Shown piece after piece: positions 30,130 through 53,146 of a stretch of 64,000 bases of DNA (position 1 is its first letter; the number at the start of each line of letters is the position of its first letter). Source of the stretch: Olleya marilimosa CAM030. Its GTDB lineage: Bacteria; Bacteroidota; Bacteroidia; Flavobacteriales; Flavobacteriaceae. Position numbers and translations under genes: made by a program. The notes beneath the pieces are model-generated. The model was not told where the DNA came from. It made no database searches and saw only the letters and a program-made list of their open reading frames with translations. The stretch covers positions 62,001 to 126,000 of the forward strand of contig NZ_JADR01000006.1 in NCBI RefSeq assembly GCF_000518485.1, written 5' to 3'.

Positions 30130-31524
30130 ATGAGCGATGCAAACATTAAATTAGCTGAGCAATTACAGAAGCTATATGGGTTTTCGGATAGTTTTATTGA
30201 GTCGCTTCAAGATGGATTAATAATAATAACGCCAAAAGGCGAAATTGTATTAACTAATGATGCCTTAAGTCGTTTAACAGGTTTTGATAAAACAGAATTG
30301 ACAGGAGCATTACTACCTTTCCCTTTTTGGCCACCAGAGTTGCATAAAGATTATAAAATGCTTTTTAATGAGCTTTCAAAAGATCATGTAAAAAGAGAAT
30401 TTAAAATTATCTATATGCACAAAAACGGGAAGCGTTTTCCTGTAACCGTATTTTTTGCAAGTATAAAAAATAATCAAGATAAGGTTATAGCCTACGTTTG
30501 CTTTATTCAAAATATAGCAGATGTTGATTTTAAAGCATTAAACAATCAATCTTGGAATCAAGAAGTTTTCACAATTTTAAATTATCGAAAAAAGTATTTA
30601 GACTTAGTTCTACAGCGTAAAATAAATCAACAACTACAAATTACTTTAAGTAATATATCAGACGGATTTGTCACATTAGATGAAGATTTATGTTACACCT
30701 ATGCTAATAATAAGGCAATTCAGCTAATAGGAAAAAAAGGCGTAGATTTGATAGGCCAAAACATATGGAAAGTTTTTCCTGAGATAATAGGACATCCTTT
30801 TTATAAAGCTTTTTGTAAGGCATTAGAAACCCAATCTACACAATATTTTAAAGGCGAGTTTAAACCCTATGAAAAATGGTTTGATTGTCGATTTTACCCT
30901 TCAGATACTGGAGGTATGTCTATTTATTTTTTAGATATTTCTAATCAAGAAAAAACAGAAGAATTACTATCTGAAAGTAAAAACGATTTAAATGCTATCA
31001 TAAATAACATTGGAGATCCATTATTTGTAAAAGACGAAGAAAGTCGATTGTTAATAGTAAATGATGCCTTTTGTAAAATGTTTGATACTAATAGGCAGCT
31101 TGTAATAGGTAAAACTTTAGCAGAAAAGGTAGCAGAGCAAGAACGAGAAGCTTTTTTAAAAGTCGATACAGAAGTTTTAAAAACAGGAATTGAAAACATA
31201 AGTGAAGAAACCTTAACAGTCAAAAACAGCAATACTAGAACTATTTCTACACGAAAAACTAGATACGTTGATAAAAGTGGAAGTAAATTTATAATTGGTA
31301 CAATTAGAGATATTACTAATCGTAAAAAAGCAGAAATTGAACTAGATCTATATAGGCATCAACTGGAAGAACTTGTTAATAGTAGGACAGAAGAGGTTAA
31401 TATTAAGAATGCCGAACTACAGCGTATGAATAAATTATTTATTGGACGTGAATTAAAAATGAAAGAATTAAAAAATACAATTAAAAAATTAGAAGAAGAA
31501 ATCGATAACTTAAATAAACAATAA
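30130..31524 (+). CDS. multi-PAS sensory protein without output domain
   Basis: A 464-residue cytoplasmic protein with three PAS/PAC repeats (about 20-130, 160-275, 285-410) and a C-terminal coiled coil (about 410-464). There is no H-box, ATPase, REC or DNA-binding domain. It begins a four-gene signalling run, 29 bases before a CHASE histidine kinase. It might deliver a small-molecule or redox signal to its neighbours through PAS-PAS contact. That is inference; similar PAS-only proteins can also be the remains of a shortened kinase. Confidence 0.8.
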   Translation: MSDANIKLAEQLQKLYGFSDSFIESLQDGLIIITPKGEIVLTNDALSRLTGFDKTELTGALLPFPFWPPELHKDYKMLFNELSKDHVKREFKIIYMHKNGKRFPVTVFFASIKNNQDKVIAYVCFIQNIADVDFKALNNQSWNQEVFTILNYRKKYLDLVLQRKINQQLQITLSNISDGFVTLDEDLCYTYANNKAIQLIGKKGVDLIGQNIWKVFPEIIGHPFYKAFCKALETQSTQYFKGEFKPYEKWFDCRFYPSDTGGMSIYFLDISNQEKTEELLSESKNDLNAIINNIGDPLFVKDEESRLLIVNDAFCKMFDTNRQLVIGKTLAEKVAEQEREAFLKVDTEVLKTGIENISEETLTVKNSNTRTISTRKTRYVDKSGSKFIIGTIRDITNRKKAEIELDLYRHQLEELVNSRTEEVNIKNAELQRMNKLFIGRELKMKELKNTIKKLEEEIDNLNKQ

Positions 31525-31553
31525 CACATAATTTTTTTTGATTCTTTTTATAT

Positions 31554-34082
31554 ATGAAGCTTATTCAATTTTATTCAATATTAAAAAAACCATTAGTAGC
31601 AGGCTTTATAACCTTTGCATTATTACTGTTTTTAACGCAATACATAACATTCCAAAAATATTACATTAACGAAAATAATCAGAAAAGAGAAATTGCTAAT
31701 CAAGTAAATTTAATTGAAGAAAAATTACAATCTTTAGTTATGTTTAGTTATTCAGCAACTAAATCCTTGGCATATATAGTAGAAAGAAACGGAATTCCTG
31801 AGGACTTTGACGACATAGCTGTAGAGTTGTTAAACCGTAGTAAGTATTTTGATGTTGTGGAGTTGGTGGATAGTAAAGGATTTATTACTCATGTCTATCC
31901 ATTAAAAGATAATGATGTAATTGGGTATAATATTATAGATAGTAAGGAGGCTAGTAGTGGTGCTTTAGCAACAATTAAAAGAAATGATTTTTTTATAGCA
32001 GGTCCAGTTAACCTTAAACAAGGAGGTATTGGCATAGTTAGTCGCCAACCCATTATTATTGATTATAAATTTGCTGGATTTTCTGCGGTAGTAACCAAAT
32101 TATCAACTTTTTTTAAAGATTTAAATATAGATCCTTCCAATAATAAGCAATATATATATCAACTATCTAGAGTAAATCAAAAGACAGGAGAAGAGGACTT
32201 TTTTTTAGATAATGATGTTTCTGGTTATCAGGCATATGCTGTGCCAATAGAGATGACCTTTGGAGAGTGGAAGCTATATGTTATCCCAACCAAACTAGAT
32301 TTTAATACAGCAATCATTTTTGCTATAATTGGTTTTTTACTTACTTTAATAAGCAGTTTTGGCGTTTGGTATTTTGCAGGACGCTCAGAACGTATTCATA
32401 AATTAATTAACATAGAGCTTAAAAAGCAAAAATCACAATTAAATAAAGTATATCAAACTAGCAGGAATCAGATCAAATTAAGTGAGTCTAACCTTAATAA
32501 AGCCCAGCGTATTGCAAAACTAGGTAATTGGGAGCTTTGTCTAGAAACAAACAAACTAACTTGGTCTAACGAGATGTTTAGAATTTTTAAAAAAAATCCA
32601 AAACATTTTAAAGTTTCACATCAAGCAATGCTGGAAGCTATACATCCGGAAGACAGAGAATTTGTATCAAAAACATACTCAGATTCCATAATAAATAAAG
32701 TTCCATATCGCATTACCTATCGTTTAAAACTTGAAGATAATCAAATTAAATACATAGACGAGCAGTGCGAAACTATTTTTGATAAAAACCAAGTTGCCGA
32801 AAAATCGTTTGGAATAGTTCAGGATATTACAGCGCGAATAAAAAGTGAAGAAGGTCTTAAAAAAAGCGAACTATTGTATCGCAGCTTAACGTCAAACGCA
32901 CCAGTAGCTATATTTAATATTAATCATAAAGGCGAGTGTACTTATGTAAACGAGCATTGGATCAAACTTTCAGGAATAAGCTATGCAGATGCTATGGGTC
33001 AAGGTTGGTTAGAAGCTTTTCATCCAGAGGATAAAAATAAGATAATTGATGAATGGGAAATGGCAATGTCATCAAATATCAAATTTAAAACAGATCTTAG
33101 GTTTAAGGATAATACAGGTAAAATCACATTTTTAACAGTAAAGGCTACAAAACTTTTAGACGAAGAAAATAATGTTTTTGGATATATTGGGATAGCCTCA
33201 GATGTTACAGAAAGAATAAATAACGAGAAAGAATTATTAAAATATAAAAACAATTTAGAGGAATTAGTTAATGTAAGGACAGAAGAGCTTAATGATAGTA
33301 AAGACGCTTTATTAAATTTGCTTGAGGATTTAAATTTTCAATCCTTAGAGTTAGAAAAAGAAAAAGCTAAAGCACAATCTGCAGATTTAATGAAATCCGC
33401 ATTTTTGGCAACTATGTCGCATGAGTTAAGGACACCTATGAATTCTATTATAGGATTTACTGGTATTTTACTTAAAGAGTTAGCAGGACCATTAAACGAA
33501 GAGCAAAAAAAGCAAATCAAAATGGTTAAAAATAGTGGTGAACATTTACTGGGTTTAATTAACGACATCTTAGATATATCTAAAATTGAAGCAGGTAAAT
33601 TAAAAGTGTCTTACAGTAGTTTTGATTATTTAGCATCGTTAGAAAAAACAATTAATTTTTTACAACCGCAAGCATCAGCAAAAGGGATTAAAATATTACC
33701 ACAAATTTCAACCTTAGATATTATTTTAAATAGTGATGAGGTTAGAGTGGAGCAAGTATTGTTAAACTTAATGTCTAATGCCATTAAATTTTCAAAAAAA
33801 GGAACTATTACTATTAAAGTAGATATTAAGGATAACATGCTAATTACTCAAGTTATCGATCAAGGTATGGGTATACACAAAAAGGACATCACTAAACTAT
33901 TTGTGCCATTTACTCAGTTAGAAGGTGGTTTGGATAGAAATCATGAAGGCACAGGTCTAGGCTTGTCAATTAGTAAAAACCTAATTGAAAAATTAGGAGG
34001 TACAATATCTGTAGAAAGTACCTTTGGAGAAGGTAGTAATTTTACCTTTACACTACCTTTAATGCCCTTAGATAATAAATAA
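31554..34082 (+). CDS. CHASE-domain sensor histidine kinase
   Basis: An 842-residue kinase. TM1 (about 13-33) and TM2 (about 260-282) flank a CHASE-like periplasmic sensor. Two PAS domains (about 320-435 and 445-560) and a coiled coil follow. The H-box is SHELRTPMNSIIGF with His623, and the ATPase has GTGLGLSISKN and a GEGSNFTF tail. There is no attached receiver, so phosphate must go to a separate protein. Two REC proteins lie directly downstream, the first after 75 bases. The CHASE ligand is unknown. Confidence 0.92.
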   Translation: MKLIQFYSILKKPLVAGFITFALLLFLTQYITFQKYYINENNQKREIANQVNLIEEKLQSLVMFSYSATKSLAYIVERNGIPEDFDDIAVELLNRSKYFDVVELVDSKGFITHVYPLKDNDVIGYNIIDSKEASSGALATIKRNDFFIAGPVNLKQGGIGIVSRQPIIIDYKFAGFSAVVTKLSTFFKDLNIDPSNNKQYIYQLSRVNQKTGEEDFFLDNDVSGYQAYAVPIEMTFGEWKLYVIPTKLDFNTAIIFAIIGFLLTLISSFGVWYFAGRSERIHKLINIELKKQKSQLNKVYQTSRNQIKLSESNLNKAQRIAKLGNWELCLETNKLTWSNEMFRIFKKNPKHFKVSHQAMLEAIHPEDREFVSKTYSDSIINKVPYRITYRLKLEDNQIKYIDEQCETIFDKNQVAEKSFGIVQDITARIKSEEGLKKSELLYRSLTSNAPVAIFNINHKGECTYVNEHWIKLSGISYADAMGQGWLEAFHPEDKNKIIDEWEMAMSSNIKFKTDLRFKDNTGKITFLTVKATKLLDEENNVFGYIGIASDVTERINNEKELLKYKNNLEELVNVRTEELNDSKDALLNLLEDLNFQSLELEKEKAKAQSADLMKSAFLATMSHELRTPMNSIIGFTGILLKELAGPLNEEQKKQIKMVKNSGEHLLGLINDILDISKIEAGKLKVSYSSFDYLASLEKTINFLQPQASAKGIKILPQISTLDIILNSDEVRVEQVLLNLMSNAIKFSKKGTITIKVDIKDNMLITQVIDQGMGIHKKDITKLFVPFTQLEGGLDRNHEGTGLGLSISKNLIEKLGGTISVESTFGEGSNFTFTLPLMPLDNK

Positions 34083-34157
34083 CATTGTCAAAAATTATTT
34101 TAAATACTAAAAAATAATATATTTATAAAGCTATTACTATTCTTAACATCAAAGCCC

Positions 34158-34538
34158 ATGATGCCTACTATTTTAATAATTGAAGATAACATGCAAAACA
34201 TGTATATGTTATCCTATTTACTGGAAAAAAATCAATATCAAGTACTAAAAGCCAACAATGGTTTTGAAGGACTAAAATTAGCAAGAATAAATAATCCAGA
34301 GATAATATTGGTAGATATACAATTGCCAGATATGGATGGTTATGCAATTTGTGACCAGTTAAGAAATAGTGATTTAGCAAAAAACACGACAATTATAGCA
34401 GTAACCTCATATGCGATGGAAGGTGATAAAGAAAAAGCGATGCAAGTAGGAGCAGATGGATACATAGAAAAACCTATAAATCCCGATACTTTTATAAATC
34501 AAATGCAAGAAGTGTATCTTGTAAAAAACCAGAAATAA
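34158..34538 (+). CDS. single-domain response regulator (REC)
   Basis: A 126-residue receiver with the acidic pocket EDN (9-11), phospho-acceptor Asp53 in LVDIQLPDMDGY, Thr in AVTSYAM and Lys in YIEKPIN. It has no output domain. It lies between the CHASE kinase and the sigma-54 activator and may relay or drain phosphate between them. ATG codons at 34158 and 34161 are both possible starts. Confidence 0.9.
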   Translation: MMPTILIIEDNMQNMYMLSYLLEKNQYQVLKANNGFEGLKLARINNPEIILVDIQLPDMDGYAICDQLRNSDLAKNTTIIAVTSYAMEGDKEKAMQVGADGYIEKPINPDTFINQMQEVYLVKNQK

Positions 34539-34544
34539 ATTGGT

Positions 34545-37500
34545 ATGAAAACAATTTTGATAGTAGATGATGTTTTTGAAAATCTATATTTATTAAGAGT
34601 AATTTTATCACAAGCAGGATATAATGTTGTAGAAGCTAATGACGGTAAAGAGGCATTAGATAAATTAACAGAAAAAAGGATAGACTTAATAATTTCTGAC
34701 ATATTAATGCCAGTAATGGATGGTTATATGCTATGTCAAGCTTGTAAAAAAGATGAAAAACTAAAAGATATACCGTTTGTGTTTTACACGTCAACTTATA
34801 CAGAAAAAGTAGACGAAGACTTTGCCTTAAAACTAGGAGCAGCACGTTTTTTAAGAAAACCAACAGACCCAGATCACATAATAGCTTTAGTACAAAGATT
34901 ATTAGATAAGTCTAACCCTTTTACAAAACCTAAAGATAATACAGAGTTTACAGAAGAAGAAGTTTTAAAACTATATAGTAAACGTTTAATAAGTAAATTA
35001 GAACAAAAAAATTTAGAATTAGAAAAAGAAATAACCGAACGAAACAAAATAGAGTTAAAACTAACTAATGAAAACGCAATATTAGATTTAATAGCCAATA
35101 ACACCTCAATTAAAAAGGTCTTTAATCACATAATACATAACTATCAATTCATACGTCCAGAGTTTTACCTATCTATTAGTTTACTAGATGATGATAAAGA
35201 GCATCTAAAACTTATTTCTGCACCAAACTTGCCAAAGGATTACTGTGCAGCCATTAAAAATTTAAAAATTGGTGAAAATGTAGGGTCTTGTGGTACGTCT
35301 GCTTATTTAAAAAAGCCGATTATAGTGTCAGATATTACTACAGATCCACTTTGGAAAGACTACCAACACTTAACAGTTGGTTTTGATTTAAAATCGTGTT
35401 GGTCAATTCCAATACTGTCAGAGAAAAATGAGGTTTTTGGAACCTTCGCAATCTACAGTAGCAATATAAAAACGCCCACTTTTGAAAATATAAGAGAATT
35501 AAACTCTGCAGTAAGCCTAGCAAAAATGGCTATTGTAAAGTTTAAAATGGCTGAGGAAGTAAAGAAAAAAGAAGAGTCTTATGAGTCCTTAGTAGAGCAA
35601 GCCACAGACGCAATTTTGACCTACACCTATGATGGCGTCATTCATACATTTAATAAAGCAACCTATACAACATTAGGATATACAAAAAAGGAGTTTTTAA
35701 AATTAAAAATTCAAGATTTTATAATTGGAGATGTTATTCAAAATAAAGTAGTTCGAGACGCCATACTTAAAGGCGAAGCTGTTATTTTTGATAGACAGCT
35801 CATGTGTAAAGACCAAACAATAATAGATGTAGAGATTTCGGCAAAACTTCAAAAAGACGGAAAAGTTCTAGCTATAGTGCGTGATGTCTCTGAACGTAAA
35901 AAAGCAGAAGCCAAATTATTAGAAAGCGAGTATAATTTAAGGCAATCCCAAATAGTAGCCAATCTAGGATCATACGCTGTCGATTTAAAAACAATGACAT
36001 GGGATTGTACAGAGCTATTATATCAAATTTTAGGAATAGATGACAACTATGTTAAAACAATAGATAGTTGGATTGATCTTGTTCATATAGAGGACAAAGT
36101 AGAAGTATTAAATTATTTTGAAAGCTGTGTAAAAAACAATAAACGATTTAATAAGGAGTATCGTATTATTCAATTTGATTCCAAAAAAGAAATTTGGGTG
36201 CAAGGTATAGGCGAGTTACTTTTTGATGACAACGCAAACCCTATTAAAATGATAGGGACCATGCAAAATATTTCTGAGCGTAAAGAAGTAGAATTAAAGC
36301 TTCAGAGAAATGAAAAATCTTTATTAGAAGCTCAAAAAATAGCTAAAATAGGTAGCTACTATTTAGATTTAGAGACCAGTTTAGCTCAGGCCTCAATAAC
36401 CTTTAAAGAGATTGCAGGTTTAGAGCAGGAGGATGCCATTTCTCGAAAATTATGGAAAGACATTACACACCCAGAAGATGCTAAAAAAAATAGTGAAGAA
36501 ATTGATAAGTGTATAAAAACTGGAGGTGAGTTTGATTTAGAATATAGAATTTTTTCTAAAACCGATAATAAATTAAAGTGGATACATGGTTTAGGTGAAG
36601 TGTCTTATCAAAACGGTAAACCAAAAAGCTTTTTTGGAACAATACAAGATATTACTGAGCGTAAAACTGCCGAAATTAAAATTCAAGAAAGTGAAAAATC
36701 ACTATCAACCGCTCAAAAAATAGCCAAAATAGGAAGTTTTAATCTTGACCTTATAAACTTGATAGCTAAAACTTCGGATACTTTTAATGATATAGTGGAG
36801 TATGAAACGGATAACAAAATATCTTTTGACTTTTGGAAAAGTATAGTACATCCTGATGACAGAGCAATAATAAAAGATGCAGTAATAAAAAGCGAAAAAC
36901 TAAATCAGAAGTTTGATTTAGAATATAGAATTATTAGTACCAAAACTAAACAGGTAAAATGGATTCATGGTTTAGGAGAGGTGTTTTACGTAGATGATAT
37001 TCCTTCAAGTTTTGTAGGGACTATCCAAGATATTACAGAGCGTAAAAAGGCAGAATTAGACCTTAAAATAGCCAATGAGTTTACTGAAAACCTTGTAATG
37101 TCAATGCAAGAAGGTTTATTAATGGTCGATCTTGAGGGTACTATCATGAAGGTTAATGATTCATTATGTGATATTTTAGGATATACCGAAGCGGAACTTA
37201 TTGGCATGGATTTACCTTATCCTTTTGCAAGGCCAGAGGATTATGAACTCATGATGGAGATTAAAGATAAAGTAGCAAAAGGCCAAGCTCCTTCTTTTCA
37301 GCTAGAATTTATCAGAAAAAATGGAACTAGATTTATAGCATCATTCTTAGCAGGTATTATTTATGATGACCAAGGAGATGTTTTAGCAATTTTTGCAACT
37401 ATAAAAGATATTTCTGAGGACTTAAAAATAAAAGAAACATTAAAACAAATAGCCTTAAAGTCTACTCAGAAAAAAGACGTCATATTAAAATTAGCGACCT

Positions 37501-45301: not shown

Positions 45302-46066
45302 ATGAATAATAATCGTAATAACGAGGATAAAGTCGCTCAAATTAATAAAGTAATAGATCATTACTTTGCGACTAATACAGATAAAGATTGGATACCAGCA
45401 AAAGATATCATGTCTGATTTAATTAATGCAGGTGTTTTTGTGAAAGATCAAAAAAAAGGATTACCACTTAGAAAAATCCTGAGAGCATTAGATAATGAAG
45501 ATAACCTAAAAGCTATACCAAGAGTGCATCCAGAACGTGCAGAAGCAGCAACATATTGGTACTTTTTAAGAGAAGGTGCTACATTTCCTGAAAATGAAAA
45601 TATTAGTACAGTTTCTAAAAAAGACGTTGCTAAAGCTAAACGCGAAAGTACAGACGAGTTTTACATCATAAACTTATGTGATGAGGTTTTAAAGGAAGAA
45701 GCATCACGTAAGCATACCTTTGCTTGGTTGTTTGGAGATATGCATAAAAAAGGTAAAACCAGAACATTGTTACCTGTAGCAGCATTTTATAAAGACGCTA
45801 ATTTAGTAATTGAATTTGCTGAAAGAAAAAATAAAACCGAAGCGCAATTAGCAAAATTAGAACAGTTAACCACAAGTGGTATTACTAGAGGACAACAAAT
45901 AGAAAAGTACAATCATAGAAGAAAAGAAATGATAGCTAAAAAAGATATCAATTTTGTGACTATTGATTACGCTTTATTTGAAACAGATAATAAAGGGAAA
46001 TTAAAACGCAATACTACAGAAGATATAGCATTGCTTAAAAAAATACTTAAAAACTATATTAAGTAA
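45302..46066 (+). CDS. hypothetical protein with possible endonuclease-like fold
   Basis: A 254-residue cytoplasmic protein. The N-terminal 95 residues look like a winged-helix domain ([29 protein letters not shown]). Residues about 135-225 contain [22 protein letters not shown], then [16 protein letters not shown] and INFVTIDY. This order recalls restriction-endonuclease-like folds, with Glu171, Glu174 and Lys176 as candidate site residues, but the first acidic position is Ala (LPVAA). It may bind DNA without cutting it. No neighbour points to restriction or repair. Assignment is tentative. Confidence 0.5.
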
Positions 46067-46091
46067 AAACAGTTTTAAATAATACGCTTTA

Positions 46092-46129
46092 AAAAGGTCT
46101 AATCTAATTACGTATAGGTTAGACCTTTT
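46092..46129 (+). terminator. intrinsic terminator after the nuclease-like gene
   Basis: AAAAGGTCTAATC (46092-46104) pairs with GGTTAGACCTTTT (46117-46129) with one G-T pair; T-rich sequence follows. Confidence 0.75.
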
Positions 46130-46247
46130 GCTTTTTATTATTTTTAGTCTCAGGATAAGTTAAGTTTAAAAGTTAAAGTAGTATGTCAAATAAACAGTTT
46201 ATTATATTTTTAGAGGCTTGTTGTAAAAAATAATAATTCGTTACTAA

Positions 46248-46565
46248 ATGCCAAATAGTATAATTGAGATTAAACGACTAAAGCAATACGCTAATAAAGC
46301 TAGAGCAATCCAAATTTATATAAATAATAAAAAAATAGATACCATTAAAGATGGAGAAACCAAATCTTTTCAGGTGGATCCTATTCAAAATCAAGTGTAC
46401 GCAAAAATTGATTGGTGCAAAACAAAACCACTCAAAATTAACACCAAAGAAAACACAATAACAAAGCTAGAATTAGGATCAAACCTATCTGGCTTTAAAT
46501 TAAAGTTTGCTTTATATTACGTGATTTTTAAAACGTCAGAATATCTGTATTTAAAAAAAATATAA
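46248..46565 (+). CDS. hypothetical small protein, PEGA-like sheet
   Basis: A 105-residue protein without a clear signal peptide. The pattern AIQIYINNKKIDTIKDGETKSFQVDP followed by QNQVYAKIDWCKTKPLKIN recalls small beta-sandwich modules in which a short peptide backbone binds a partner. The C-terminal 25 residues are aromatic and basic. No role is known. It lies 48 bases before the module B histidine kinase and may belong to that operon. Confidence 0.5.
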   Translation: MPNSIIEIKRLKQYANKARAIQIYINNKKIDTIKDGETKSFQVDPIQNQVYAKIDWCKTKPLKINTKENTITKLELGSNLSGFKLKFALYYVIFKTSEYLYLKKI

Positions 46566-46613
46566 GTTGATATTTACAACATAAATTAAACAATTGGTCT
46601 AAAAATAATGTAA

Positions 46614-47702
46614 ATGAATACTACTGAAAAAGCATTAAAAGAACGTATTAAGGAGTTGACCTGTTTGTATGAGGTATCTTCAATAATAGGTAATGCTAAC
46701 GAAGAGTTAATCGAGGATACTTTACAAGCCATAGTGTTTAGTATAAAAAAAGGATTTCAATATCCCAAAAAAACAGACATTCAGATTAATGCTTCTACGT
46801 TAAGCATAGCAACGTGTAATGACGTTAAAAGCAGCATAAGTATTCAGTCTAAAATAAAATTGTTTAATGAAGACAAAGGGACGTTAACCGCTTTTTTAAA
46901 TGAAGCACAATGCACTCAAAACGATTTTTTAAACGAAGAACAATTACTACTAGATAATATAGCACTTAAAATAGGTAGTTTTCTAGAACGTATCGAAATT
47001 CAGAAAAACGAAACCTCTCTTAAACGACAAATGGAACATGCAGATCGTTTAAGTATTTTAGGCGAAATCACAGCTGGTATAGCACATGAGCTAAATACAC
47101 CATTAGCTAATATTTTAGGCTTTGCGGAGTTGCTTAAAGAGGATTTAAAAACAGATATAAAAGCCTCTCAGGATGTAGATAAAATTATTAAAAACGCTAT
47201 ATTTTCCAGAGAAGTTGTTAAAAAGTTAATGTTTTTTGCTTGCGAAATGCCTCAAGAAATGAAGGAAGTAAATTTAGTGCCAAACATTAAAAATGCAATA
47301 AATTTACTAGATGCCACTTTTAGAAAAGAAGAGGTCAAGTATATTGTTAAAATAGAAGAAGAGGCCTTGTTATTGCGTGCAGATCCAATACAATTAACTC
47401 AAATTATTTTCAACTTATTAATTAATGCTATTTATTTTTCTCCAAAGCAAGGGTTGGTTACAATTGAAGCTAAAACCACTAAAAAGGCAATTGTTTTAAA
47501 AATTAAAGACGAAGGTGAAGGTGTTAATCAAGCAGATTTGGATAAAATTTTCCAACCTTTTTTTACTACCAAACCTATTGGTGACGGTTCTGGATTAGGA
47601 CTAAGTGTGGTACATGGTATTGTGGCATCGCACAAAGGGACAATTACCGCAAAAAACAATAAAAATAAAGGCGTTACTTTTACTATTACACTTCCAAAAT
47701 AA
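46614..47702 (+). CDS. soluble histidine kinase of module B
   Basis: A 362-residue cytoplasmic kinase. The N-terminal 120 residues (KELTCLYEVSSIIG) look like a degenerate GAF domain. The H-box is IAHELNTPLANILGF with His158, and the ATPase has GSGLGLSVVHG. There is no membrane segment, so it senses an internal signal. It is nine bases before the NtrC-type regulator, its evident partner. Confidence 0.93.
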   Translation: MNTTEKALKERIKELTCLYEVSSIIGNANEELIEDTLQAIVFSIKKGFQYPKKTDIQINASTLSIATCNDVKSSISIQSKIKLFNEDKGTLTAFLNEAQCTQNDFLNEEQLLLDNIALKIGSFLERIEIQKNETSLKRQMEHADRLSILGEITAGIAHELNTPLANILGFAELLKEDLKTDIKASQDVDKIIKNAIFSREVVKKLMFFACEMPQEMKEVNLVPNIKNAINLLDATFRKEEVKYIVKIEEEALLLRADPIQLTQIIFNLLINAIYFSPKQGLVTIEAKTTKKAIVLKIKDEGEGVNQADLDKIFQPFFTTKPIGDGSGLGLSVVHGIVASHKGTITAKNNKNKGVTFTITLPK

Positions 47703-47711
47703 CAGATATTC

Positions 47712-49040
47712 ATGCAATTACGTAAAGAAAACATACTTATAGTTGACGACGATGTAAATATCTTAGAGTTATTGCAACGTCATTTGCAATCTTGGAATTA
47801 TCATGTGTTTAAAGCAGTTTCTGTTAAAGAAGCAGTTAGTATTTTAAGGGATTCGACTATAGATTTATTAATTACCGATTTAAAAATGCCAGAATTGGAT
47901 GGTTCAGAGCTTATTAAATTTGTGTCGGAGCACTATCCTAAAATGCCAAAATTGGTAGTAACGGGATATCCATCGGTTCAGGACTCATTAGCTGCTATAA
48001 AATCTGGAGTTGTGGATTATTTGACTAAACCATTTACTAAAGACGAGCTTAAAATGGCGTTGGATAAATGTCTGGTAAACTCAGATAGCGTAACGCAATC
48101 TCCTAAAAACTCAATAATTAATAGTGATAAGCCTTACGGCGAAATTATAGGGCATTCCGATAAAATTAATACTGTAATTCAGGTTATTGAACGTGTTAAA
48201 AACAATAAAGCCACTGTTTTTATTAAAGGTGAAAGTGGTACAGGAAAAGAACTAGTTGCGCGTGCCATTCATTATCAAGGTAAATTTTCTAGAGCACCAT
48301 TTATTGCAGTAAATTGTGGTGGCATACCAGAAAACCTATTAGAAGCAGAGTTGTTTGGGTATTTAAAAGGAGCTTTTACAGGAGCAGAAACTAATCGCGA
48401 AGGGTTTTTTCAAGCAGCAAATGGAGGGACTATTTTTCTAGACGAAATTGGTAATGCTTCATTAACAGTGCAATCTAGATTACTTCGTGTGTTGCAAGAA
48501 AAAGAAGTGGTAAAAGTAGGATCTACAAAAGCAGAAAAAGTAGATATACGTATTATAGCTGCGACCAATAGTGATTTACGCGACATGATTCAAAAGCAAA
48601 CTTTTAGGGAAGATTTGTATTATAGATTAACAGTTGTAGAGATTGATGTAGCACCTTTAAGACAGCGCAAAGACGATATTAAATTATTGGTAGATAAGTT
48701 TTTGTTTAAATATGGTGTAGAGTATAAGGATGGCTATGTAAAAATAACTCCAGAAGCTTTAAAAATATTAGAACGTTACAATTGGCCAGGAAATATTAGA
48801 GAACTTGAAAACGTTATCCAACGTGCAGTGATACTTAGTGATAAAACCGTTGAGGTTAGTCATTTACCAGAGCATTTAAAATATACATTGCAAGACGCTT
48901 CGGACACATTACAACCATTAAAAGTCATTGAAAAGCAATACATAGAAAAAGTACTAAGAGCTACAGGAAACAATAAGACCAAAGCTGCTAAGATTCTTCA
49001 AATTGACAGAAAAACTATTCGTCAAAAATTATCCGATTAG
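47712..49040 (+). CDS. NtrC-type sigma-54 response regulator of module B
   Basis: A 442-residue activator of standard NtrC layout: REC with Asp56 (LLITDLKMPELDG), AAA+ with Walker A GESGTGKE near 173, the intact sigma-54 loop GAFTGA near 220, Walker B TIFLDEIG, and a C-terminal Fis-like HTH (NNKTKAAKILQIDRKTIRQK). Phosphorylation by the neighbouring kinase should allow it to activate sigma-54 promoters. The site at 49052-49091 and promoter at 49177 lie directly downstream, suggesting they are its own targets. Confidence 0.94.
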   Translation: MQLRKENILIVDDDVNILELLQRHLQSWNYHVFKAVSVKEAVSILRDSTIDLLITDLKMPELDGSELIKFVSEHYPKMPKLVVTGYPSVQDSLAAIKSGVVDYLTKPFTKDELKMALDKCLVNSDSVTQSPKNSIINSDKPYGEIIGHSDKINTVIQVIERVKNNKATVFIKGESGTGKELVARAIHYQGKFSRAPFIAVNCGGIPENLLEAELFGYLKGAFTGAETNREGFFQAANGGTIFLDEIGNASLTVQSRLLRVLQEKEVVKVGSTKAEKVDIRIIAATNSDLRDMIQKQTFREDLYYRLTVVEIDVAPLRQRKDDIKLLVDKFLFKYGVEYKDGYVKITPEALKILERYNWPGNIRELENVIQRAVILSDKTVEVSHLPEHLKYTLQDASDTLQPLKVIEKQYIEKVLRATGNNKTKAAKILQIDRKTIRQKLSD

Positions 49041-49051
49041 ACTTTTTTTGT

Positions 49052-49091
49052 AGTGGTACATTTTTACTCAGTTGGGTAATTTTGCACCACT
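49052..49091. promoter_or_regulatory. inverted-repeat site, probable enhancer of module B
   Basis: AGTGGTACA (49052-49060) and TGCACCACT (49083-49091) are inverted with one mismatch and 22 bases between. The half-site TGCACCA resembles that of enterobacterial NtrC, though here the halves point outward. It ends about 85 bases before the -24 element of the promoter at 49177, a usual enhancer distance. Confidence 0.55.
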
Positions 49092-49124
49092 TGTAATTTT
49101 TTAGTTTATTTTATAAAATCATCT

Positions 49125-49149
49125 AACCCCTTTATTTAAAGGGGTTTTT
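49125..49149 (+). terminator. intrinsic terminator after the NtrC-type regulator
   Basis: AACCCCTTTA (49125-49134) pairs with TAAAGGGGTT (49137-49146), and the T run reaches 49149. It separates the regulator operon from the sigma-54 promoter. Confidence 0.82.
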
Positions 49150-49176
49150 GCATTTGTGACAGGTTACATTATTCAT

Positions 49177-49192
49177 TTGGCACATGCATTGC
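49177..49192 (+). promoter_or_regulatory. near-consensus sigma-54 promoter
   Basis: TTGGCAC, then five bases, then TTGC: the -24 GG is at 49179-49180 and the -12 GC at 49191-49192, matching TGGCAC-N5-TTGC. Transcription would start near 49204, before the ATG at 49229. The same bases form TTGGCA-N7-TGCCAA, so a palindromic operator is an alternative reading. Confidence 0.7.
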
Positions 49193-49228
49193 CAATAGGT
49201 TGGTATATAGATTATAAATTTTACACCT

Positions 49229-49393
49229 ATGAGTCATTTTAATATTTGTCCAAATTGTATACATCGCAATTATTGTGTATTAACAACCAATAAAAATACT
49301 GTTTGGTCATGTAGCGAGTTTGATGCATTAAAACCAAACCAACCAAATTTAGAACAAGTAAAACAACCAGAACAAGAGTTAGTTTTAGTTTAA
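49229..49393 (+). CDS. 54-residue Cys4 (zinc-ribbon-like) small protein
   Basis: A small protein with cysteines at 7, 10, 16 and 28 (CPNC, YC, SC), suited to bind one zinc or an Fe-S cluster, and an acidic, Gln- and Pro-rich C-terminus. It is the first gene behind the sigma-54 promoter. I recall similar short proteins in other Flavobacteria, which supports a real gene. A regulatory or metal-sensing role is possible, but nothing further can be said. Confidence 0.6.
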   Translation: MSHFNICPNCIHRNYCVLTTNKNTVWSCSEFDALKPNQPNLEQVKQPEQELVLV

Positions 49394-49412
49394 TCCTTTA
49401 ATAGTAAAAGCT

Positions 49413-49550
49413 ATGTTTTTTAACACAATAGTTTCAGTATTTGGCAGCAAAAATTCTTTAGAAAAAAAATCTAATAAAAGCCAAGCTAGAGATAGATATA
49501 TCTCACAAAAATATTACGAAAGATCTATAATCAATCGCTATTTCAAATAA
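49413..49550 (+). CDS. 45-residue basic small protein
   Basis: MFFNTIVSVFGSK is followed by a Lys/Ser/Arg-rich stretch and ends in INRYFK. A short hydrophobic N-terminus and basic remainder could bind membrane or nucleic acid. It lies 19 bases after the Cys4 gene and 19 before glutamate dehydrogenase. The even spacing supports a gene, but no homologue is recognised. Confidence 0.4.
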   Translation: MFFNTIVSVFGSKNSLEKKSNKSQARDRYISQKYYERSIINRYFK

Positions 49551-49569
49551 AAATAACAAACACATTACA

Positions 49570-50874
49570 ATGACAACAGTAACAGCAGATTTGAAAAAAG
49601 TAACAAAAAAAGTACCAGTCAGAGGTATGATGGATAATGTTATGGAGCAGTTTAATAGTGCTGCAGACCATATTAATTTACATCCAAATATTAGAAAAAT
49701 ATTAAGTATCACTAATAATGAAATTTTAGTCAATTTTCCAGTAAAAATGGATAATGGTGATGTTGAGATTTTTACAGGTTATAGAGTGCAACATAATAAT
49801 GCTTTAGGACCATATAAAGGTGGTTTACGTTATCATCCAACAGTAGATATTGATGCAGCTAGAGCGCTAGCAATGTGGATGACCTGGAAAACATCATTAG
49901 CAGGATTGCCATATGGTGGAGGTAAAGGAGGTATTAAAATAGACCCTTCAAAGTACTCGCAATCAGAGTTAGAGCGTATTACAAGACGTTTTACGTTTGC
50001 TTTAGCAGATAATATTGGACCAGAACATGATATTCCTGCTCCAGATGTCAATACTAATAGTCAGACTATGGCTTGGATTGCAGATACCTACATGAGTACA
50101 CGTCCACCAGCAGAACGTACTGCTAATCAACACGTCGTTACAGGTAAACCTGATGCAAGTGGTGGATTAGAAGGACGTGACAGAGCAACAGGTTATGGTG
50201 TGTATTTGTCCATTAAATTTTGGGCAAATAAAACTAATACAAGTTTAGAAGGTAAAAAGTTTATCGTACAAGGTTTTGGTAATGTTGGTTATTGGGCTGC
50301 TCATTTTTTAGAAAAAGATGGCGCAAAAATGGTAGCAGTACAAGATGCTTCTGGTAGTATTCAAAATCAAAACGGATTAAACGTTGAGGATTTATTTAAA
50401 TACAGTCAAATTAACGATGGTAGTATTGTAAACTTCCCAGATTCTAAAATGGTGGATAATAAAAAGTTTTTCACTTTAGATTGTGACATCTGTATTCCTG
50501 CTGCTTTAGGTAACCAAATAACAAAAGAAAATGCACCAAAAATTAAAGCAAAATTAATTGCAGAAGGTGCAAACGGACCAACAAATGTAGAAGGAGAAAA
50601 GATTTTGTTAGAACGAGGTATTACAATTATACCAGACATTTTATGTAATTCAGGAGGTGTCGTTGGTAGTTATTTTGAATGGTTACAAAACCGAAATGGA
50701 GAGATTTGGCAATTGGACGAGGTGATGGCTAAATTGGATAAAAAAATGAAAGAGTCCTTTAATAAAGTATTTGATTATGCAATAAATGAAACTGTGGATT
50801 TACGTACAGCTGCATTTTGTATAGCCATACAACGTATAGAAAAAGCATACATACAAAGAGGTATTTTTCCTTGA
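49570..50874 (+). CDS. glutamate dehydrogenase (Glu/Leu/Phe/Val family)
   Basis: A 434-residue dehydrogenase with the substrate-binding GPYKGGLRYHP (Lys83), Lys107 and catalytic Lys119 in GGGKGG, and the Rossmann motif QGFGNVG. It interconverts glutamate and 2-oxoglutarate plus ammonium, with NAD or NADP. Which cofactor and whether Glu is the true substrate are not certain. Placement behind a sigma-54 promoter, as for nitrogen genes elsewhere, supports a nitrogen or carbon link. Confidence 0.9.
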   Translation: MTTVTADLKKVTKKVPVRGMMDNVMEQFNSAADHINLHPNIRKILSITNNEILVNFPVKMDNGDVEIFTGYRVQHNNALGPYKGGLRYHPTVDIDAARALAMWMTWKTSLAGLPYGGGKGGIKIDPSKYSQSELERITRRFTFALADNIGPEHDIPAPDVNTNSQTMAWIADTYMSTRPPAERTANQHVVTGKPDASGGLEGRDRATGYGVYLSIKFWANKTNTSLEGKKFIVQGFGNVGYWAAHFLEKDGAKMVAVQDASGSIQNQNGLNVEDLFKYSQINDGSIVNFPDSKMVDNKKFFTLDCDICIPAALGNQITKENAPKIKAKLIAEGANGPTNVEGEKILLERGITIIPDILCNSGGVVGSYFEWLQNRNGEIWQLDEVMAKLDKKMKESFNKVFDYAINETVDLRTAAFCIAIQRIEKAYIQRGIFP

Positions 50875-50890
50875 TTTTAAAACACATAAG

Positions 50891-51310
50891 ATGAAGTACG
50901 GAAGTTTAATTTTAGAAAAAAAAGAGTATGTGTACTTAAAGCGTATACTCAATATTTCGGGATATGGAAATGATACTAATGTCACTAAATCTTTAGTAAA
51001 ATTATCTGAAGAGTTAAAGACTGCTCAAATTGTAAATAATGACGAAGTACCAGAAGATATAGTACGTTTTAATAGTATCGTTACTATAGCGTCAGAAAAC
51101 GGTTGGGAAAAGGAGTTACAAGTCGTAATACCAATGGACAAAAACGTGGCACTTAATAAAGTGTCCGTTTTGGCTCCAATGGGAGCAGCACTTTTAGGCT
51201 ATTCAAAAAATGATACTATAGATTGGGATTTTCCTGGAGGTGCACAAAAAATTAAGATTATTGATGTCCAAAAGGAAGAGAGTTTAAAAGGAATTGACAT
51301 ACATATTTAA
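50891..51310 (+). CDS. Gre/Rnk-like C-terminal domain protein
   Basis: A 139-residue protein whose second half (VSVLAPMGAALLGYSKNDTI then DWDFPGGAQKIKI) is the FKBP-like C-terminal domain of GreA/GreB, as in Rnk. The N-terminal coiled coil of a true Gre factor is missing, so it should not rescue arrested RNA polymerase like GreA. It may bind polymerase or other partners during slow growth. It is 16 bases after glutamate dehydrogenase. Confidence 0.8.
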   Translation: MKYGSLILEKKEYVYLKRILNISGYGNDTNVTKSLVKLSEELKTAQIVNNDEVPEDIVRFNSIVTIASENGWEKELQVVIPMDKNVALNKVSVLAPMGAALLGYSKNDTIDWDFPGGAQKIKIIDVQKEESLKGIDIHI

Positions 51311-51321
51311 AACAGATTATT

Positions 51322-51741
51322 ATGAAAACAGAAAACATTCAAATTTTTGATCATGATACAAATGTAGATGTGACCCATAAAATAAATACAATGGAACTAG
51401 ACAATTGGATCAATCACTTAAAATACATAAAAAAAGAACTATCTAATCTAATCAATATTTGTCAAAACGAATTAAAAGATAAGTTAGATGACAAAAGTGT
51501 GGTGGATAGATTTGAGAAAAAAGAAATTGAAAATGAAACGCTTTTAAATGCCCTAAACACCTATTCTAAATCCAGATTAAATATTATCGAATGTGAGGAT
51601 ACGCAATGCGATATGATTTACATAACAGAGCATGAAAGTTACAGACGAAGCTATTTATATCATTTAGATAAATACAGAAGACTTAAAGACGAGTTTTTTA
51701 ATAAAGTACAAGGTAAGTTCACGCTTTTAAAAGTTAATTAA
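51322..51741 (+). CDS. hypothetical coiled-coil protein 1
   Basis: A 139-residue, highly helical and charged protein with no signal or membrane segment. The motif MELDNWINHLKYIKKELSNL begins a long heptad region. It is similar in length and layout to its downstream neighbour (NHWITVLELAVKEFEHF), so the two are probably duplicates. No function is known; it may form a helical bundle with its neighbour. Confidence 0.55.
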   Translation: MKTENIQIFDHDTNVDVTHKINTMELDNWINHLKYIKKELSNLINICQNELKDKLDDKSVVDRFEKKEIENETLLNALNTYSKSRLNIIECEDTQCDMIYITEHESYRRSYLYHLDKYRRLKDEFFNKVQGKFTLLKVN

Positions 51742-51744
51742 TAA

Positions 51745-52131
51745 TTGAATACAGCTTCAGCTTATAAAATAGAATCGCACAGACGTGTATGCTTAGTTAA
51801 AGATTGTAAGGAGACCAATCATTGGATTACTGTACTAGAATTAGCAGTTAAAGAGTTTGAGCATTTTAATAATATTGAAAAACAGCTAATTAAAAATATA
51901 GACACGTCCAATAATATGTTGGCTTTACGCAGAAAATTCACCTTAAGCATGGCTAATTTTTGCAAATATGAACAAGAAATTATAAATGAAATAGAATACG
52001 GAAAAACAGAATATAATGATAGTCGTGCTAAAATACACGAATTAAAAAGACAGCAATATATCCAAGTTATTAAAGAGCTTCATGACTTTAGAATCAAGTT
52101 TTATACCAATTTAGAAAGGTTTAAAAGGTAG
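51745..52131 (+). CDS. hypothetical coiled-coil protein 2
   Basis: A 128-residue helical protein starting at TTG (51745), three bases after the preceding stop. It has the same W-x(n)-L-x(n)-E pattern as coiled-coil protein 1, but sequence identity is low. It ends 81 bases before the UspA gene. A shared complex is plausible only from position. Confidence 0.5.
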   Translation: MNTASAYKIESHRRVCLVKDCKETNHWITVLELAVKEFEHFNNIEKQLIKNIDTSNNMLALRRKFTLSMANFCKYEQEIINEIEYGKTEYNDSRAKIHELKRQQYIQVIKELHDFRIKFYTNLERFKR

Positions 52132-52212
52132 CTAAAAATTGGGTTTTTCAGATATAAAGTGCTGGGTAAGCATAGTCTTAAAAAGTATAATATTAATTTA
52201 AAATGTAACAAG

Positions 52213-53043
52213 ATGAAAAAAATACTGATTCCAACAGATTTTACTTTAAATAGTTTTCAAACTATAGACTATGTACTCAAGCTTTTTAAACATGAGACCT
52301 GTGAGTTTTATTTTTTAAATACGTATTCATATGATGCTAATGGATTAGATGCGATACAATTGCTACAAGCAGATGAAGATTGGTTTGATAAGCCTAAACA
52401 AAATGCACAAAAGCAATTAGGTAAATTGGTAGAACGCTATACGTTAAATTGTAAGGCATTAAATCATCAATTTTTTGCAGTATCAGATTGTTCAGAATTA
52501 TTACTAAGTATTCAAAAAAATATAAAAGATTTAAACATTGACCTTATTATTCTTACTAGCAAAAAGGAGAAAAATCTAGGTAAAAAAACACAAAGTATTG
52601 TTGAAAAAATTAGGTGTTGTCCTGTCTTAATTGTACCACCACATGCAGCAACAAGTAATAAAATTAATATCACAATTGCTTCAGATTTTAAGCAGCAGGT
52701 AAATACCCATCAAATAGATAAATTTTTAAATATTTTAGAAAATACCAATTTAGAAATAACTGTTTTAATACTAGAAAAACAAAACGCATTAAGTGATACT
52801 GCTTCTAACAATCTAGAAGCTATGCTTGACTATCTAAAACAGATATCAGGACACACAGCAGCGTTGCATTACACAGGTGCTTCATATAATTTAAAAGCCT
52901 ATGCGCAATCTCATTTAGATGGCATCATGTGTGTAATTGACAAAAAACCACGCTTGTTAAGAAAAATTGGTGTGTTTAAATCTGACATCTTTTCAACCTT
53001 AAAACAACTTCATACTAATACTGTTTTAACGATTCATCAATAA
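52213..53043 (+). CDS. UspA-family universal stress protein
   Basis: A 276-residue protein starting at the ATG at 52213; a GTG frame 18 codons longer lacks a family match. The first half is a UspA fold: KKILIPTDFTLNSF, DLIILTSKKEKNLGKKTQSIV and CCPVLIVPP. The second half is a degenerate repeat. Two-domain Usp proteins respond to starvation or low oxygen in other bacteria. It is the penultimate gene of the module B operon. Confidence 0.85.
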   Translation: MKKILIPTDFTLNSFQTIDYVLKLFKHETCEFYFLNTYSYDANGLDAIQLLQADEDWFDKPKQNAQKQLGKLVERYTLNCKALNHQFFAVSDCSELLLSIQKNIKDLNIDLIILTSKKEKNLGKKTQSIVEKIRCCPVLIVPPHAATSNKINITIASDFKQQVNTHQIDKFLNILENTNLEITVLILEKQNALSDTASNNLEAMLDYLKQISGHTAALHYTGASYNLKAYAQSHLDGIMCVIDKKPRLLRKIGVFKSDIFSTLKQLHTNTVLTIHQ

Positions 53044-53053
53044 AAATTTTGTT

Positions 53054-53146
53054 ATGAGTAACCGGAAATTTAATGGTCTTATTATTCTTATTACAATTAT
53101 AATTATTGCGTTATTATCATGGATGGTACCACCTCCAATAGTTTAA
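53054..53146 (+). CDS. 30-residue single-pass membrane protein
   Basis: MSNRKFNG followed by an uninterrupted Ile/Leu-rich helix and a PPP-containing end, giving one transmembrane segment with a basic cytoplasmic N-terminus. It starts ten bases after the UspA gene. Short membrane proteins of this kind often modulate larger complexes, but no partner is known. The gene is too short to be certain. Confidence 0.5.
   Translation: MSNRKFNGLIILITIIIIALLSWMVPPPIV

Follow-up and report, generated by a model that had tools for sequence, protein, structure and literature searches.

The window analysed here, a 64,000-nucleotide stretch of the Olleya marilimosa CAM030 genome (contig NZ_JADR01000006.1, positions 62,001 to 126,000), contains two modules that are very probably independent, self-contained sigma-54 control cassettes. 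In each of them the gene for an enhancer-binding protein (EBP1 in module 1, EBP2 in module 2) is followed by a pair of dyad-symmetric operators, a hairpin, a -24/-12 promoter, and a predicted target operon (Table 1). An earlier note, made from the sequence alone, had claimed this order of elements for both modules, and its positions proved right to within 1-2 bases. It had also proposed that each activator drives its neighbour. Such control is well supported by comparative evidence, and we infer it from the uniqueness of the strict operators in the genome, the co-occurrence of operators and activators, and the observation that operators stay with the promoter. Conservation of the repeats in relatives with the same genes, named beforehand as a check, was found in 17/17 module 1 orthologs and 78/80 module 2 loci.

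Operators and promoters of the two modules

The module 1 operators are two copies of a palindrome with the consensus CACGGWATWCCGTG, the first of which starts 4 bases past the EBP1 stop codon. The pair is present in all 17 EBP1 orthologs, with centres 39-42 bp apart (40 bp in ten). These orthologs were taken from 27 examined loci and were grouped after the operator sites had been seen; L055, with an N-terminal match only, and nine more distant activators (L059-L067), whose helix-turn-helix (HTH) sequences differ from that of EBP1 where read, were left out, and L068 and L070 each represent a second piece of a gene that had been counted. The pair is also carried by two Olleya genomes and by L069, the second EBP1 copy of genome G118. 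The EBP1 module of this genome is tandemly duplicated (L181), and an operator pair, a promoter, and a DUF7793 match accompany each copy. The two palindromes are inverted in O. marilimosa, whereas at least four relatives (L042, L046, L050, and L051) have them in direct orientation, so that the conserved property is the dyad symmetry of each copy and not the inversion of the pair. Thus, the inverted repeats reported by the earlier note are present and conserved, but they are really pairs of dyad-symmetric operators.

The pattern CGGWATWCCGTG occurs twice in the 3.34 Mb genome, both times here (one match for the reversed-pattern control). Among 149 genomes of the family, the operator pair, sought with a gap of 30 bp and no more than one mismatch, was detected in exactly 10, once in each and always adjoining EBP1, compared with none in the control. 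The overlap of these genomes with the 17 EBP1 genomes, grouped post hoc, has a hypergeometric P of 1.8e-11.

The module 2 operator block starts 13 bases past the EBP2 stop codon and consists of dyads approximating TGGGTAATTTTNCCCCA; the sequence GGGTAATNNNNCMCC has its single exact match in the genome at this place. A weight matrix was built from the 27 of 30 loci that were over the operator threshold. Below it were two clear failures, L019 (-7.7) and L022 (-8.1), and L033, which scored 5.6 when left out; in L240, which represents the same region as L019, an operator was found 884 bp 3' of the stop codon. Because the search for the promoter covered a range of 60-180 bases from the best operator, it did not impose a tight distance. 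Operator and promoter were identified together in 78 of the 80 named module 2 loci, including 68/70 among the sites outside the training set. Within the first 450 bases 3' of EBP2, 71 of the 80 loci pass, 70 of them at 116-122 bp, whereas none of 1600 dinucleotide shuffles and none of 160 coding stretches do so.

The EBP2 gene and the operator are separated by other DNA in 11 of the 78 loci. In all of these the operator starts 132-4900 bp past the stop codon and is still found 87-100 bp ahead of the promoter. The operator thus travels with the promoter rather than with the 3' end of the EBP2 gene.

Several points weigh against this assignment of operators and their proposed role. The -12 element of module 1 is TTGG, not TTGC. 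Two of the 80 named loci deviate, L262 being without a promoter at the right distance and L267 having a weak operator, and the named genomes are related, so that the 78 loci are not independent events. A composite pattern for module 2 applied to whole genomes was too strict and hence insensitive: of 149 genomes it matched only 3, in each case at EBP2, and the control gave one match. The module 2 half-pattern with one mismatch has 42 matches in the genome and 31 in the control, and degenerate second sites are possible.

Distance between operator and promoter

The -12 position was counted one base further in the surveys of the 17 orthologs and 30 loci than in the 80-locus survey and later distance counts. 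The centre of the proximal module 1 operator is 106.5-110.5 bp from the -12 G in 14 of the 17 orthologs, 120.5 bp in two, and 96.5 bp in one; by the count that is one base shorter, the distance is 111.5 bp in L069 and 107.5 and 108.5 bp in the two Olleya genomes. In module 2, the operator end is separated from the -24 element by 89.2 bp (standard deviation (SD) 1.08, range 86-91) in 75 of the 78 loci, the exceptions of 99, 99, and 100 bp belonging to two Gillisia species and one uncultured Ulvibacter. By simple arithmetic, the proximal dyad of module 2 is about 110 bp ahead of -12, and the proximal operator stands about 107-111 bp ahead of -12 in both modules, although the operators are unrelated. 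Where loci of either module clearly depart from this spacing, they do so by roughly a helical turn: the module 1 distances make steps of 96.5, about 108.5, and 120.5 bp, and three module 2 loci are about 10 bp longer.

We read this near-constant spacing as an indication of fixed loop geometry. More generally, sigma-54 enhancers of flavobacteria may be cassettes that are phase-locked and serve a single target, a tentative proposal whose chances we put somewhat short of even. If true, these enhancers would be rigid, rotation-sensitive loops and not distance-tolerant elements, and activator, operator, and promoter would evolve as a unit. The natural helical-turn steps allow the geometry of DNA looping to be tested by comparison. 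The same constancy could reflect evolutionary inertia, with indels being rare and no selection acting on helical phase. Indeed, the genomes are related, the module 2 spacer is partly conserved (44% identity over 689 equal-length pairs versus 31% expected from composition, with 67% in the operator and 73% in the promoter), and the module 1 copy L069 falls slightly outside the main class. However, the flanking gaps in the same loci vary more, with an SD of 4.1 ahead of the module 2 operator (median 11 bp, 67 loci) and of 3.0 between -12 and the first start codon (median 39 bp, 69 loci), against 1.1 around 89 bp, and the clear exceptions, 96.5 and 120.5 versus 106.5-110.5 bp and 99-100 versus 86-91 bp, are displaced by about a helical turn. 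Inertia is thus possible but unlikely as the sole source of the constant spacing.

Sigma-54 machinery and extent of the regulons

RpoN has a single match in the genome (PF04552, E 4.4e-52). The sigma-54 activation domain PF00158 has nine, of which four are strong (bits > 220), and two of these four, EBP1 (E 2.9e-69) and EBP2 (E 8.0e-70), show the operator-promoter layout. No such layout was found in the 330 bases 3' of the stop codons of the other two (L001 and L004), where the best sigma-54 scores within 500 bases are 10.5 and 11, compared with 13 and 14 in the two modules. Translations of both activators contain the Walker A motif as GESGTGKE and the GAFTGA loop of the sigma-54 activation domain as GAFTGA (EBP2) or GSFTGA (EBP1). 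The Fis-type HTH domain PF02954 is clear in EBP2 (E 9.7e-13) and weak in EBP1 (E 7.9e-4, 19.5 bits, under the cut-off of 22). EBP2 is 97% identical to its Olleya namhaensis counterpart. The EBP1 open frame ranges from 729 to 1634 aa among the 17 orthologs (L041-L058 minus L055), with the AAA+ domain, HTH, operator, and promoter being retained.

All 17 EBP1 orthologs share the HTH sequence KPSTLRD, and two of the more distant activators with STLRS in the HTH (L060 and L064) have related sites such as CACGATATATCGTG. This likeness of STLRD/STLRS domains and of operators, seen in two loci only, is a lead toward recognition specificity.

Many enhancer-binding proteins have several targets, and the neighbouring operon could be just one member of a larger regulon, or the other two strong enhancer-binding proteins could also act here. 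A genome-wide scan yielded 51 sigma-54-like sites, which could accommodate such regulons, but this number is near the control count of 42, making the scan unusable as a regulon finder, and the strict operators occur only at the neighbour. Larger regulons or cross-acting activators are thus rather improbable.

Adjacency of the two modules

The modules are 8.7 kb apart on the same strand, which would suit one coordinated unit or two systems functionally drawn to the same neighbourhood. The order of module 1 followed by module 2 is found only in Olleya (2/80 named loci), and EBP1 or DUF7793 matches outside EBP2, sought up to 10 kb on either side, were present only in the two Olleya loci of the 80. 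The upstream side of EBP2 is covered for 9.9 kb or more in 67 of the 80 loci and the downstream side in 70. Among the sampled genomes of the family, six possess both activators (G000, G029, G038, G063, G107, and G110); these are within 13 kb of each other, in opposite orders, in G000 and G029 and on different contigs in the other four. In Psychroserpens damuponensis (L192, 10067-15454), genes for a module 1-like PAS protein and kinase are located downstream of module 2 until the contig end, which may be a third case of the modules occurring together.

In Lacinutrix algicola (L196), the gene order is mnmE-u45-HK2-EBP2, HK2 being the sensor kinase of module 2, with about 0.75 kb from mnmE to u45 where the window holds module 1; in G091, module 1 likewise follows mnmE. 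In Olleya, module 2 was probably already in place when module 1 was acquired next to it. A purely incidental adjacency is weakened by the closeness of the modules in two of the six genomes and by the possible L192 case, and because of these observations we raised the chance of a single unit from next to negligible to slim. Against it, the order differs between genera, the operators are unrelated, the modules are on different contigs in four of the six genomes, and nearby EBP1 or DUF7793 matches are limited to Olleya among the named loci. That the two modules lie close together in opposite orders merits further attention.

Hairpins and IHF-like sites

Of the terminators that the earlier note had placed between repeat and promoter, the one in module 2 stands. 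A terminator-like hairpin is found in 42 of 78 module 2 spacers, compared with 3 of 390 mononucleotide shuffles, and 40 of the 42 fall into two neighbouring 5-bp position bins. The module 1 hairpin, in contrast, is not enriched in relatives (at least 8 pairs and a T tail in 3/17 spacers versus 36/170 shuffles), and as a conserved terminator it was rejected, since none of the 17 spacers contains a terminator by the rule used for module 2; by eye, a terminator-like hairpin was noticed in the module 1 spacer of L191.

The module 1 hairpin overlaps a conserved IHF-like site. The IHF consensus is WATCAANNNNTTR, and AATCAATATATTA inside the hairpin matches it perfectly. On either strand, perfect matches occur in 10/17 module 1 spacers versus 2.1% of shuffles, and matches with at most one mismatch in 14/17 versus 36.3%; in 11/17 spacers a forward-strand match with at most one mismatch, perfect in seven, starts 40-42 bp 5' of the -24 T. 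Two proteins of the HU/IHF family are encoded by the genome. Perfect IHF sites are few in module 2 spacers (3/78).

The repeats start 4 and 13 bases past the activator stop codons, and in this genome a 12-bp stem could arise from the module 1 pair, so they might function as structures in the RNA, as terminators or 3' ends of the activator transcripts, but this is largely refuted, and now highly improbable, given the direct copies of module 1 in at least four relatives and the 11 module 2 loci where the element keeps its usual promoter distance 132-4900 bp away from the activator gene.

Predicted target operons

Table 1. Features of the two sigma-54 modules (positions in the window)
Feature	Position	Strand	Basis
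PAS-repeat protein, upstream of module 1	30130..31524	+	three PAS stretches
Module 1 sensor histidine kinase (PAS, HisKA, HATPase_c)	31554..34082	+	Pfam domains
Module 1 single-domain response regulator	34158..34538	+	PF00072
EBP1 activator, REC-GAF-PAS repeats-AAA+ (PF00158)-Fis-type HTH, 1494 aa	34545..39029	+	domains, orthologs
Module 1 operator A, palindrome AACGGTATTCCGTG	39034..39047	.	pattern search, conservation
Module 1 operator B, palindrome CACGGAATACCGAC, 40 bp from A	39074..39087	.	pattern search, conservation
AT-rich hairpin ahead of T run (terminator of the earlier note)	39116..39154	.	sequence
IHF-like site AATCAATATATTA within hairpin, 41 bp 5' of -24 T	39135..39147	+	consensus match
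Module 1 sigma-54 promoter (-24/-12) TGGCATCCGTATTGGT	39176..39191	+	sequence, conservation
Module 1 predicted target D1a, paralogue of D1b; ATG at 39215	39215..39637	+	alignment; no Pfam match
Module 1 predicted target D1b, DUF7793, predicted SpoIIAA/STAS-like fold	39642..40058	+	Pfam, model, fold search
Probable secreted protein, weak type IX secretion system (T9SS) sorting tail (under Pfam cut-off)	40115..42076	+	homologues near EBP1 in several relatives
Probable secreted surface protein, resembles 43596 gene	42079..43530	+	translation; no Pfam match
Probable secreted surface protein	43596..45065	+	homologues near EBP1 in several relatives
Module 2 sensor histidine kinase HK2 (HisKA, HATPase_c)	46614..47702	+	Pfam domains
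EBP2 activator, REC-AAA+-Fis HTH response regulator, NtrC type	47712..49040	+	domains, orthologs
Module 2 operator block, 17-bp dyads 49054-49070 and 49073-49089, 19 bp apart	49054..49089	.	matrix, conservation
Intrinsic-terminator-like hairpin, conserved at nearly constant place	49125..49146	+	sequence, relatives
Module 2 sigma-54 promoter TGGCACATGCATTGCC	49178..49193	+	sequence, conservation
Predicted target 1: 54-aa protein with C-x2-C-x5-C and VWSCSE; ATG at 49229	49229..49393	+	alignment
Predicted target 2: glutamate dehydrogenase	49570..50874	+	family match
Predicted target 3: GreA/GreB C-terminal (Rnk-like) protein	50891..51310	+	family match
Predicted target 4: predicted three-helix protein, no family match	51322..51741	+	alignment, model, fold search
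Predicted target 5: protein of unknown function kept in relatives, TTG start uncertain	51745..52131	+	gene survey
Predicted target 6: universal stress protein, start uncertain	52159..53043	+	family match, gene survey

The first two genes past the module 1 promoter encode the paralogues D1a and D1b (20-25% identity in alignment). D1b is STAS-like by its predicted structure (pLDDT 87.5): the best matches of the model in the PDB are the STAS proteins 4xs5 (E 8.9e-4) and 1th8, with TM by target length up to 0.70. D1a was assessed by alignment alone. In STAS/SpoIIAA-type proteins, a phosphorylatable serine is found in a DSxG-type motif; as judged by eye from the alignment, D1a and D1b have a serine (FST/FSN) in the likely stretch, and the DSxG motif is not present. 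In four of five relatives read, the genes that come after D1b encode a PAS kinase and a small receiver protein. The secreted protein at 40115 has homologues encoded near EBP1 in six (L156, L174, L176, L177, L182, and L183) of the 18 long pieces with an EBP1 match (L156 and L173-L189).

In one of these pieces (L185 of G083, 9187-9502), the EBP1 operators and sigma-54 promoter are present with no DUF7793 match after them, and a strong hairpin with a T tail starts 124 bases past the -12 G. This promoter could possibly serve a sigma-54-dependent small RNA.

The gene content downstream of module 2 was surveyed within 7 kb in the 74 named loci having more than 6 kb downstream. It comprises the Cys protein in 64 loci, glutamate dehydrogenase in 66, the GreA/Rnk-like protein in 72, the two uncharacterized genes in 65 and 55, and the universal stress protein in 40. 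The 54-aa Cys protein (49229-49393), the first gene past the promoter in most named loci, has four conserved cysteines and generally retains C-x2-C-x5-C and VWSCSE in relatives; our guess is that it holds a metal or Fe-S site. In the 51322-51741 protein, C91, D93, D97, and R108 are invariant and C96 nearly so among 39 sequences, and a structure search with its model gave no PDB match with E below 0.001. Neither the Cys protein nor the first helical protein has an NCBIfam match up to E 0.1, and the same holds for D1a and D1b.

Proposed mechanism

In each module, phospho-signalling through the kinase and receiver domains, in response to a sensed signal, would activate the AAA+ enhancer-binding protein, which would bind the two palindromic operators directly past its own gene. 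The DNA is expected to loop across about 110 bp, in module 1 possibly with the aid of an IHF/HU-like bend, allowing the activator to open the sigma-54 RNA polymerase that is poised on the -24/-12 promoter, so that transcription would start ahead of the next operon. Module 1 would switch on the two STAS-like signalling proteins and, if the operon extends that far, probably also the secreted proteins. Module 2 would switch on a stress-type operon consisting of the small Cys protein, glutamate dehydrogenase, the GreA/Rnk-like factor, and the universal stress protein. Since the operator sequences differ, each activator should serve its own neighbour, and no cross-activation is expected.

Comparison with known systems

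In the searchable literature, sigma-54 control seems to have received little attention in Bacteroidota, and our search found no paper describing these two cassettes or regulons. PMC12316311, the broadest paper found, predicts sigma-54 targets and cites a study of Dokdonia MED134 for an rpoN regulon; for Flavobacteriia, the accessible portion of its text names neither operators nor activators. The present analysis resolves two chains of activator, operator, promoter, and target to the base level across Flavobacteriaceae, and the cassettes suggest the functions under control: a stress-type operon that includes glutamate dehydrogenase and a GreA/Rnk-like factor, and an operon for STAS signalling and the cell surface.

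EBP2 has the REC-AAA+-Fis layout of AtoC, ZraR, and NtrC, which give its best NCBIfam scores, but these are under the equivalog cut-offs (398/714, 393/760, and 394/559 bits, respectively), so that by score it is a member of none of them, and its predicted target operon differs from those of AtoC, NtrC, and ZraR. The fold of the D1b model matches SpoIIAA/RsbV-type STAS proteins (4xs5 and 1th8) at an identity of about 10%, only one match having E below 0.001. With its putative IHF-consensus site between operator and promoter, module 1 resembles the IHF-assisted sigma-54 promoters described in the available part of PMC7962754; in module 2, perfect IHF sites are few.

In the sigma-54 regulons of Desulfovibrio vulgaris, as far as the available text of PMC4641369 goes, activators are encoded with their target operons and palindromic operators are conserved across genomes. 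The present cassettes are alike in both respects, an activator being encoded with a predicted sigma-54 target operon and the palindromic operators being recognized by genome comparison. In that bacterium of another phylum, however, the same text gives varied operator distances, some of them over 300 bp and some operators being downstream of the promoter, whereas the distance is almost fixed here. The system as a whole is of a known kind, standard sigma-54 control, in a little-studied phylum.

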